DNA of 64,000 nucleotides from Acetobacter cibinongensis (GTDB lineage: Bacteria; Pseudomonadota; Alphaproteobacteria; Acetobacterales; Acetobacteraceae): contig NZ_BAMV01000018.1 in NCBI RefSeq assembly GCF_000963925.1, positions 62,001-126,000 on the forward strand. Reading direction: 5' to 3'. The notes below the pieces were generated by a model. The model worked only from the letters and a program-made list of their open reading frames with translations. It had not been told where the DNA came from and ran no database searches. Of this stretch, positions 24,457 through 28,185 are shown piece after piece; position 1 is the stretch's first letter; each line of letters starts with the position of its first letter. A program made the position numbers and the translations under genes.

Positions 24457-25206
24457 ATGACGACACTCACAATTGCCCATCCAGACACAACCATTCACGA
24501 GGCAACCGCTGCGGCAATTATACGCGTTCTTGAAGCAAATGACGTTGAGCCAGAAATTACGATTGGTCCCAAAGGCGCCCTACGTGACATGCTTAGCGCC
24601 GGAGAGGTTGATCTTTACGTTTCTGCCTGGCTTCCGGAAGATGCAGCGTTTCTTACACCCGGGGTGACGTCATTGGGCGTTCTGTTTAACCCCAGTGTAA
24701 GCTGCTGTCTTTCTCAGGAACACAACGCTACCCTGACATCTCTGTCCAATCTGGCGCAAGCAGGCTCAGAACTATCACGTGACGTTATCGTGCCGGAAAC
24801 TCTGCTGCACCACGCAGAAGCAATGTTTTCAGCTTACGCTCTGCAAGAAGCAGGTTTTACTCTGCGCGCCCTTCCTGACGAGGAAGCTTTAGCTACTTTT
24901 AGCGCATCACTTGCAAAAGAGCAGCTCGTTCTGACCGTGTTGGCACAGCCTTGCTACCTTTTTCATCAGGGAGGGTTCCGCATCCTGCAAGATCCGAAGG
25001 AAACACTAGGGCTGGAAATGACTGCACACATCCTCCTCCGGCCCGGTCTAGCGGACGAGATGGATCGGGACTTGTATGATGAGCTGGATGAACTCATGCT
25101 CAGCACCAAAGTGATCAGTGCTATGGACTACGCCATGCGGGCAGAAGGATTAAGCGCAGATGATGCCGCAGAGTCCTGGCAGCGCGGCAAGCTGCTCCCT
25201 CGCTGA
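24457..25206 (+). CDS. OpuAC/ProX-like substrate-binding-fold protein without signal peptide
   Basis: A 249-residue protein resembling the glycine betaine/choline-binding OpuAC domain: LTIAHPD at the start, then MLSAGEVDLYVSAWLPE (W58) and a late two-lobe pattern. Canonical family members are exported or lipid-anchored; this one starts directly with the fold's first strand (MTTLTIAHPD) and has no signal peptide, and no ABC permease or ATPase gene is adjacent. It may act in the cytoplasm as a binding or sensor protein. AGGAAGAAAAG lies upstream of the ATG. The methyltransferase gene follows 25 bp later. Confidence 0.75.
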   Translation: MTTLTIAHPDTTIHEATAAAIIRVLEANDVEPEITIGPKGALRDMLSAGEVDLYVSAWLPEDAAFLTPGVTSLGVLFNPSVSCCLSQEHNATLTSLSNLAQAGSELSRDVIVPETLLHHAEAMFSAYALQEAGFTLRALPDEEALATFSASLAKEQLVLTVLAQPCYLFHQGGFRILQDPKETLGLEMTAHILLRPGLADEMDRDLYDELDELMLSTKVISAMDYAMRAEGLSADDAAESWQRGKLLPR

Positions 25207-25231
25207 CACGTATCTGAGGAAGGCTTGCAGC

Positions 25232-26491
25232 ATGTCTCCATCATCTGAGCTTGACCGGCACGATGCTGGCCTTGCCGCCCAGTACGAAACTTTCCCGTAC
25301 CCTGAACGCACACCTCAGGACGAAAGCAAACGGCTGCTGATAGGCAGCCCAAGCCATTTGCGCGAAATCGATTACTGGGTGTTCAAAGCCAAGCGGCCAA
25401 GACATCTGCCTTTACGGGTGCTTGTTGCTGGATGCGGTACAGGTGATGGTGCCATCATGCTGGCCACGCATATGGCCCGATCAGAACGCGTCGGCGAGGT
25501 TATCTGCCTTGATCGCTCTTCAAAAGCGCTTTCCATTGTGAAAGAGCGGGCAGCCGTGCGTAATCTGACAAATATTCAGTATGTTGAAGGCTCACTGAAT
25601 AATCTGACAGCTCTTAACCTTGGCTCATTTGACTATATTGACTGCTGCGGTGTGCTGCACCACTTGCCAGATCCGCTGGCAACATTGCGTGATCTTGTAA
25701 ACCATCTTGCACCGGGTGGGGGTATGGGGCTCATGGTCTACGCCCCATACGGACGAACAGGTGTTTACATGGTGCAGGAGGCCCTTCAGCATCTAGCACC
25801 ACTGCAGGACTCTCCAACATCCCGGCTGGATATTGCCAAACGTGTCATGCGTACACTGCCAGCCACGGCCTGGCTCCGCATGAATGGTAATTTTGGTGAC
25901 CATTTGAGTGGCGGGGATGCGGGCCTTTACGATCTGCTCCTAAACCCAAGAGATCGTGCCTACACCGTGCCAGATTTTTTGGAACTGCTGGATGCTGCGG
26001 GGCTGGAGGCTTCGTGCCTGATGGAACCAGCACGCTACAATCCATCGCTTTTTCTTCCTGATCCCAAACTCCGCGCACGACTGGATGTATTGGACTGGAA
26101 GGAAAAAGCAGCAATTGCAGAGTCCTTAACGGGAAATATGGCCACGCATGTCGCTTACGTTGTGAAAAAAGGTGAGGAGCAAACGCCACCAGACTTCATG
26201 GACGAAGCCGCAATTCCCGTAATGCGCGAGATACCGGGTATAGAATTAGCCAAACAAATGCTGCCAAACCACACACTGCCGTTTTCTTTTGGCACTTTGG
26301 TTGTGCCCATTCCGTTGCCAGCGCAAGCCCGTGGCCTTTTGCCGCTTATAGATGGGAGTCGTACGGTAGGAGAACTGGCTGATATTCTGAGCAGCAGAGG
26401 CGTTCCCAAGGATAAATTCTGGGGCATCTGGAAAGAAACTTTTTCTACCCTGGAACAACTGAACCGCGTCCTCCTGCAATCTCCAGCGTAA
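25232..26491 (+). CDS. Class I SAM-dependent methyltransferase with C-terminal extension
   Basis: A 419-residue protein. N-terminal YETFPYPERTP and GSPSHLREIDYWVF precede the Rossmann methyltransferase domain: motif I VAGCGTGDG at 65-73, the acidic D94 region ICLDRS, and DCCGVLHHLPDP around 138-148. The region after about residue 290 is an extra domain with LPLIDGSRTVGELADILSS, a winged-helix-like or PqqD-like segment near the end. Start ATG 25232 is fixed by GAGGAAGG 8 nt upstream. The substrate is unknown. It sits between the OpuAC-like and YdcF-like genes in one apparent operon. Confidence 0.85.
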   Translation: MSPSSELDRHDAGLAAQYETFPYPERTPQDESKRLLIGSPSHLREIDYWVFKAKRPRHLPLRVLVAGCGTGDGAIMLATHMARSERVGEVICLDRSSKALSIVKERAAVRNLTNIQYVEGSLNNLTALNLGSFDYIDCCGVLHHLPDPLATLRDLVNHLAPGGGMGLMVYAPYGRTGVYMVQEALQHLAPLQDSPTSRLDIAKRVMRTLPATAWLRMNGNFGDHLSGGDAGLYDLLLNPRDRAYTVPDFLELLDAAGLEASCLMEPARYNPSLFLPDPKLRARLDVLDWKEKAAIAESLTGNMATHVAYVVKKGEEQTPPDFMDEAAIPVMREIPGIELAKQMLPNHTLPFSFGTLVVPIPLPAQARGLLPLIDGSRTVGELADILSSRGVPKDKFWGIWKETFSTLEQLNRVLLQSPA

Positions 26492-26507
26492 ATAAGGAGA
26501 GGGAGCT

Positions 26508-27035
26508 ATTCAGCATCAGACGGAAAACTCCAGCATTATTCTTATTTTTGGTGCGGCACTTAGACCGGATGGGACACCCAGCCCTTCGTTATGCAATCGG
26601 GTGAGCGCTGCGGTATCTTTCGGCCAGAACGCGGCTCGGCCCCTCTATCTTGTTACGGGTGGGGTGCCAAAAAACGGCCAGACAGAAGCCTCTGTCATGG
26701 CCGACCTCCTCCTTCAGGCAGGAGTAGAGAGCAAAAACATCCTTCTGGAACCTACTGCGTCAGATACAGCCGCATCTATTAAAGCTTGCTCCGTTGTCCT
26801 GCGGCAGATCGGGCACGACAAGAGCTCGCCCATTCATTTTTGCACCAGCACTTACCATATTCCGCGTTGTGCCTTGCTGTTACGCCTTGCAGGGTGGGTG
26901 CCTGAAAAAATTCCCTATCCTTTTTCCATATTTCCTTCACGGAACATTTTCCGCAACATGCTTATTGTAGGTCACGAAGCCATCGCCAGCCTATGGGATG
27001 GGCTGCTCGTGCTTATCTGGCGTATTGTGCGCTAG
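26508..27035 (+). CDS. YdcF/DUF218 family protein with probable ATT start codon
   Basis: DUF218 begins with a conserved strand and GAAL-type loop. Here that motif, ILIFGAALRPDGTPSP, lies upstream of the first conventional start (GTG 26601). The frame is open from TAA at 26493, and between it and 26601 there is no ATG, GTG, TTG or CTG. ATT at 26508 is preceded by a perfect AAGGAG (26494-26499) with 8-nt spacing, giving a 175-residue protein. Later motifs VTGGVPKNGQTEA and STYHIPRCA are typical of the family, and the C-terminus (about 150-172) is hydrophobic. DUF218 proteins are membrane-associated and implicated in envelope polymer transfer; the role here is unknown. Confidence 0.75.
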   Translation: MQHQTENSSIILIFGAALRPDGTPSPSLCNRVSAAVSFGQNAARPLYLVTGGVPKNGQTEASVMADLLLQAGVESKNILLEPTASDTAASIKACSVVLRQIGHDKSSPIHFCTSTYHIPRCALLLRLAGWVPEKIPYPFSIFPSRNIFRNMLIVGHEAIASLWDGLLVLIWRIVR

Positions 27036-27240: not shown

Positions 27241-28185
27241 ATGGCAGTTTACGCTTTTGTTTTCCCCGGACAAGGCAGTCAGTCCGTTGGTATGGGAGCA
27301 GACCTCGCTCAGGCATTCCCGGCAGCCCGTGCTGTGTTTCAAGAAGTTGACGACGCCCTTGGCGAGCATCTTTCAAAAATCATTTTTGAAGGACCACTTG
27401 ATACATTAACCAGCACAGAAAACGCTCAGCCAGCCCTGATGGCCGTTTCCATGGCAGTACTGCGTGTACTTGAAACGGATGGAGGCCTTGATCTGGGCGC
27501 AAAGGCAACACTGCTTGCCGGCCACTCCCTGGGTGAATACGCAGCCCTCGCTGCTGGTCGCTCCTTCGGCATTACAGAAGCAGCGCGACTGCTACGCTTA
27601 CGCGGGCAGGCTATGCAGAAAGCCGTTCCAGCTGGCGAAGGTGGCATGGCCGCCATAATTGGTGGCACCCTTGCTCAGGTTGAAGAAATCTGTGCCACGG
27701 CAGGCAAAGGAAGTGTGCTGGAGATAGCCAATGATAATGGCGGTGGTCAGATTGTCATTTCCGGCAAGATGGACGCGATTGATCAAGCCATTGCGCTTGC
27801 AAAAGAAATGAAGATCAAACGGGCGCTTAAGCTTCCCGTATCTGCACCGTTCCATTGCTCTCTGATGCGTCCCGCCGAAGATATCATGGCTGAGGCGCTG
27901 GAAAAGGCGGATATTGCGGCGCCCATCGTGCCCGTTATTGCGAACGTAACCGCCGAGAAAGAAACGGACGCTGATGCGATTCGGTTAAACCTGACGCGTC
28001 AGATCACAGGTCGTGTACGCTGGCGTGAAAGCGTGCAGGCCATGTCTGGCATGGGGGTAGATACCTTCGTTGAAATTGGCGCAGGGAAAGTACTCTCCGG
28101 CCTTGTCAAACGGATTGACGGTGAAGTGGCAACGCTTTCCATCAACACACCAGCAGACATCGAAGCCTTTCTGAAAACTCTATAA
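27241..28185 (+). CDS. fabD: Malonyl-CoA:ACP transacylase
   Basis: FabD loads malonyl from CoA onto ACP. The 314-residue protein has FPGQGSQSVGMG at 8-19, the nucleophile Ser96 in GHSLGEY and the catalytic His in APFHCSLM. A frame start at 27211 is possible, but ATG 27241 (MAVYAFVFPGQ) with AGTAGG upstream is the family start. It opens the fatty-acid cluster fabD-fabG-acpP-fabF. A short GC hairpin (27078-27093) lies in the 205-bp upstream gap. Confidence 0.96.
   Translation: MAVYAFVFPGQGSQSVGMGADLAQAFPAARAVFQEVDDALGEHLSKIIFEGPLDTLTSTENAQPALMAVSMAVLRVLETDGGLDLGAKATLLAGHSLGEYAALAAGRSFGITEAARLLRLRGQAMQKAVPAGEGGMAAIIGGTLAQVEEICATAGKGSVLEIANDNGGGQIVISGKMDAIDQAIALAKEMKIKRALKLPVSAPFHCSLMRPAEDIMAEALEKADIAAPIVPVIANVTAEKETDADAIRLNLTRQITGRVRWRESVQAMSGMGVDTFVEIGAGKVLSGLVKRIDGEVATLSINTPADIEAFLKTL

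Follow-up and report, generated by a model that had tools for sequence, protein, structure and literature searches.

An ATT codon behind a strong Shine-Dalgarno sequence is probably a rare, weak start of ydcF in Acetobacter cibinongensis

Where does translation of the ydcF gene of Acetobacter cibinongensis begin, given that its frame offers no conventional start codon ahead of the conserved domain? We analysed a stretch of 64,000 nucleotides of the genome (hereafter the window), and all coordinates below are positions within it, on the + strand unless marked. The genes follow one another on that strand in the order methyltransferase (25160-26491), ydcF/DUF218 and fabD (27241-28185), and the methyltransferase gene also neighbours ydcF in 23 other loci of the genus. 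fabD, identified by its Pfam Acyl_transf_1 domain, lies 205 nt 3' of ydcF; its longest frame opens at GTG 27211, and relatives place its start at ATG 27241. Beyond fabD stand genes that resemble fabG, acpP and fabF.

The ydcF frame is closed on its upstream side by a TAA (26493-26495), after which it reads GGA GAG GGA GCT ATT (26508) CAG CAT CAG ACG GAA AAC TCC AGC ATT ATT CTT ATT TTT GGT. An AAGGAG Shine-Dalgarno (SD) sequence (26494-26499) precedes ATT 26508-26510 with a spacing of 8 nt, and this ATT, 16 nt 3' of the methyltransferase stop codon TAA (26489-26491), is the sole start-like codon at the usual SD distance. Begun there, the coding sequence would comprise 175 codons and a stop (26508-27035). 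The first canonical in-frame codon is GTG 26601-26603, residue 32 as counted from ATT, and no ATG, GTG, TTG or CTG occurs in frame between the upstream TAA and this GTG. Direct reading thus bore out both the SD with its spacing and the lack of canonical codons, as given in the first-pass annotation. From 26489 up to ATT 26508, ATG, GTG and TTG were absent from all three + strand frames. Other codons considered as starts, namely ACG 26520 and ATT 26535, 26538 and 26544, were set aside as too distant from the SD or located within the first predicted β-strand. A frameshift or fusion with the methyltransferase gene was also rejected, as TAA 26493 closes the ydcF frame and no other + strand open reading frame of at least 20 residues spans the junction. 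A promoter scan around ydcF found none.

To gauge the SD, we computed how strongly the 20 nt upstream of each candidate start pair with an assumed anti-SD octamer; a 16S 3' end was looked for and not found. The duplex energy amounts to -8.2 kcal/mol at ATT 26508 vs -0.7 kcal/mol at GTG 26601. An SD as strong as that of ATT was found at only 2 of 30 hand-picked window genes (3 of 30 when the best nearby start was counted) and at 1.8% of 3000 positions drawn at random from the + strand. The SD before ATT therefore ranks among the best of the window, beyond chance. RNA folding over the start showed possible pairing of this SD with UCUCC 26480-26484, which belongs to the final codons of the methyltransferase gene (region 26480-26500). 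The resulting hairpin is predicted to mask the SD in part and is no better than chance, since 118 of 200 shuffled sequences fold equally well.

The protein itself indicates how much of its N-terminus is needed. The Pfam DUF218 profile matches at 67.6 bits, well over the cut-off of 27.6 (E 1.3e-18), from position 2 to 131 of 133, and the match begins at residue 10 from ATT (26535). The DUF218 opening motif accordingly lies 5' of every conventional start, as had been annotated. The product from GTG 26601 matches the profile only from position 28. The structural model has a mean pLDDT of 83.5, with ten-residue means of 88-98 over residues 11-130, and places strand 1 at residues 10-14 and helix 1 at residues 26-39. 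Its best structural match, well above the next ones, is Escherichia coli YdcF (PDB 3CA8), with a Z score of 14.9 and an rmsd of 3.4 over 147 residues (model residues 7-165). The predicted fold thus resembles that of the E. coli protein, from which the window YdcF differs by its low identity (14% over the alignment) and its shorter chain (3CA8 has 261 residues). A sequence search of the PDB returned nothing at E 0.01, whereas the structural search did find YdcF, and a search of NCBIfam gave a weak ElyC match only, far under the cut-off of that entry. S-adenosylmethionine binding is reported for E. coli YdcF (PMC12176290). The window genome encodes a second DUF218 protein (L127; G000:C113:249147-249548, - strand) with a probable N-terminal membrane segment, by which it looks like a different, ElyC/SanA-like type.

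These data bear directly on GTG 26601, from which a shortened protein might be translated. It is the first canonical codon in frame, and its product still exceeds the Pfam cut-off (59.5 bits vs 27.6). However, it has no SD, it lies within predicted helix 1, and a protein begun there would lack strand 1 and half of helix 1, along with 9 of the 44 residues that are invariant among 23 genus relatives, all 9 of which precede residue 32. In addition, a canonical codon lies upstream of the motif in all usable relatives (see below). The N-terminal strand and helix, the invariant residues, the beginning of the Pfam match and the missing SD at GTG together argue for an evolved start upstream of 26601. 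We consider initiation at this GTG very improbable, and the doubt already cast on it by the first-pass annotation is well founded.

We then compared the start region across relatives. ydcF matches were found in 39 of the 49 genus genomes, the window genome included, the nearest relative being 59% identical. The start scan covered 39 other genus loci (from 38 genomes) and 26 loci drawn from the 103 matching genomes of other genera; one locus (L095), with a 24% match in which the motif was not found, was left out of the count. An in-frame ATG, GTG or TTG precedes the motif in 64 of 64 usable relatives, all of other species, a count of available codons rather than of codons in use, whereas the window has none. 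Retention of a non-canonical codon across species, a mark of genes starting at AUU, AUA or AUC, is thus lacking from our sequence comparison, in which ATT is known from one genome. Two other marks of such genes are present, as no canonical start would yield the conserved protein and a strong SD stands at the usual distance. Over the stretch that would set ATT against the ATG of the nearest relative, the alignment is heavily gapped. An SD as strong as that of the window ydcF occurs at some candidate start in 4 of 38 genus relatives. Three closely related loci (L016, L017 and L022) have in common a single ydcF start site, whose SD is very strong (-10.8) and which carries TTG, GTG and ATG among the three, indicating that the start codon of this gene drifts. 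The position of the start drifts among relatives as well.

Constraint on the protein appears intact. The window YdcF keeps 44 of the 44 invariant residues, and its frame contains no internal stop, frameshift or other disabling change. In a tree of 24 loci, its terminal branch measures 0.256 substitutions per site vs 0.575 for the nearest relative, and relative to two flanking genes its ratio is 0.59, the third lowest of 24. The lesions or relaxed constraint of a pseudogene were therefore not observed, nor was any acceleration. Full-length YdcF thus was made until recently or still is. By a rough estimate that assumes a neutral divergence of 0.3-1.0, any neutral period would be confined to no more than the final 4-25% of the branch when indels are counted, or 21-69% with stops only.

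Such constraint does not, by itself, tell a working ATT from a canonical start lost very recently. The latter explanation, which the first-pass annotation did not raise, holds that, in this strain or species, the original start codon changed to ATT, leaving YdcF at trace levels or nil; the gene would then be a weak allele or a pseudogene at an early stage, within a genus where it is frequently lost. The ATT occurs only once among the 64 usable relatives and the window, and a simple model of random ATG loss does produce ATT, in about 8-14% of cases. The genomic record also gives this explanation substance, as 10 of the 49 genus genomes have no ydcF match. Among these are two small genomes (1.5 and 1.7 Mb) and one with a completeness of 86%; a methyltransferase match is missing from one of the ten, and another has no fabD beside the methyltransferase gene. 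In eight gene-less genomes, the methyltransferase-fabD gap measures 104-381 nt, vs 745 nt in the nearest relative with ydcF. Two of the eight (G008 and G015; best E values 9e-44 and 7e-39) retain the 3' end of the gene together with the spacer, while the other six have no recognisable remnant.

On a midpoint-rooted methyltransferase tree of 33 loci, from which 6 loci with ydcF but no nearby methyltransferase gene were left out, the nine gene-less genomes that could be placed form four groups: L080/L082/L083/L085, L081/L084, L077/L079 and L078. L077 and L079, the two with ydcF remnants after the methyltransferase gene, are sisters and probably reflect one shared loss. L078 falls beside the window genome; support for the group, which includes the nearest relative, is weak (63). 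Judging from these sequences, ydcF is dispensable and was lost in about four separate lineages of the genus, one of them perhaps near the window genome. Start loss is thus a credible first step of ydcF decay, and the position of L078 shifts the odds slightly away from use of ATT. Repeated loss is the strongest argument against the view of the first-pass annotation. Against a recent loss stand the absence of any stop, frameshift, invariant-residue change or acceleration, and the short neutral period estimated above, although a very recent event would be compatible with them. We regard recent start loss in a dispensable gene as the main rival, serious but the less probable of the two. In one 86% complete genome (L085 and L086; G027), the methyltransferase gene is split and fabD frameshifted, perhaps through assembly errors.

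The window sequence might likewise be in error, the true codon being a canonical start misread or altered during sequencing, assembly or propagation of the stock. ATT is one base away from ATG, the genome is a 3.1-Mb draft of 120 contigs, and no second sequence of the species was found in the databases searched: a 29-base pattern had no exact match in viral_contigs, megablast gave no match in plasmids, and a scan of genome_contigs, which may leave out records near the window, yielded 15 distant loci at 28-34% identity. However, the frames are intact on both sides of the start and the assembly has a completeness of 100 and a contamination of 0.1. Single-base errors are rare in finished contigs. 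An error of this sort appears quite improbable.

Whether ribosomes of this genus use codons of the ATH type (ATT, ATA or ATC) was addressed with infC, which served as a control gene. It was read in 30 genus loci, in the window genome (L126; G000:C115, about 67438) and in the nearest relative (L096-L125 and L128 for the other loci). In every one of the 32 genomes, the window genome included, an ATA follows AGGAG at the same position. Among the 29 loci for which codons were listed, 22 have no canonical codon upstream in frame, and the 7 others have one farther upstream. In the window genome, no canonical codon lies 5' of the ATA, but a CTG stands two codons before it, directly after AGGAG. This analysis suggests that infC in the genus begins with ATA; the conserved AUA is likely to go together with autoregulation by IF3. 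By comparison, the window genome probably uses an ATH start, and ribosomes of the genus apparently accept such starts. Elsewhere, infC has an AUU start in E. coli, an AUC start in Streptomyces (PMC5472188) and an AUA start in Staphylococcus aureus (PMC13009471).

Taking these observations together, the best reading is that YdcF is translated at full length from ATT 26508, by weak initiation aided by the strong SD and probably also by ribosomes finishing the methyltransferase gene; we assign it a probability of roughly 0.54. We infer the following course of events. The strong and well-spaced AAGGAG would hold the 30S subunit over ATT 26508, where the initiator tRNA would pair with AUU at two positions and start at a fraction of the AUG rate. 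IF3 would reject most of the AUU complexes, so that the output of YdcF would be low. Ribosomes ending at TAA 26489 may re-initiate 16 nt downstream and supply part of the initiation events, and a terminating ribosome would open the pairing of the SD with UCUCC 26480-26484. Partial re-initiation is made probable by the relatives, as in 10 of the 23 with an adjoining methyltransferase gene a canonical codon overlaps the methyltransferase stop by 4 nt. In E. coli, extra IF3 inhibits re-initiation, and does so to a lesser degree if there is an SD (PMC2268962).

The proposal that YdcF begins at ATT therefore stands as the best reading, with recent start-codon loss as its serious rival. A used ATT is favoured by the constraint that the protein retains, by the strong SD and by the choice of ATT among the possible outcomes of random loss; its presence in a single genome and the repeated loss of ydcF favour decay. 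Prior odds do not favour AUU, as reconstructions recovered an AUG-to-AUU switch in 1 of 61,358 cases (PMC5622118). In our judgement, the loss of a start codon with nothing else damaged is also rare. The first-pass annotation further evoked control through IF3, as for infC or pcnB, an idea that derives from published work on other genes. This suggestion finds no comparative support, with a canonical codon in 64 of 64 relatives and the gene lost in about four lineages; the putative regulatory codon of infC is conserved, in contrast to the ATT of ydcF. We consider it unlikely that AUU is fixed and selected in this lineage and couples the amount of YdcF made both to IF3 levels and to the translation of the methyltransferase gene, with the SD freed from UCUCC by the terminating ribosome. 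In that case, a DUF218 protein beside fab genes would be tuned by initiation-factor availability.

The assignment has practical consequences. Gene finders limited to ATG, GTG and TTG would truncate ydcF by 31 codons, with loss of its first strand, or overlook the gene altogether. If ATT is used, the gene adds one more lineage-specific case to the short list of natural AUU starts; if not, it offers a clean view of the first step of loss in a gene that disappeared about four times in the genus. The ATT of the window ydcF is probably a rare, weak start.

Among known systems, infC resembles ydcF in that an ATH codon follows an SD and no better start is available nearby, but the codon of infC is the same in all 32 genomes read while the ATT of ydcF was seen once. 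The AUU start of E. coli pcnB, reportedly described by Binns and Masters in 2002, likewise belongs to a chromosomal gene and limits output; unlike that of ydcF, it was tested experimentally, and the two genes are not homologous. In S. aureus, strong SDs direct initiation at the AUU of cvfC1 and the AUA of ccpN, as we propose for ydcF, but those starts, which are conserved, have been mapped by ribosome profiling and with reporters (PMC13009471). In the same study, reporters with AUU or AUA behind a strong SD reached ~10% of AUG levels in poor medium, and one such start up to 30% in rich medium (PMC13009471). The closest parallel is the AUA of citZ in the S. aureus NCTC 8325 lineage, a non-canonical start that is also confined to one lineage; it is common to all strains of that lineage and was measured with reporters, whereas the ATT of ydcF is known from the sequence of one genome (PMC13009471). 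The literature search for Acetobacter with the wording 'noncanonical start codon', from which subscription papers were largely absent, retrieved none. AUU starts behind strong SDs are an already known kind, to which ydcF would belong.
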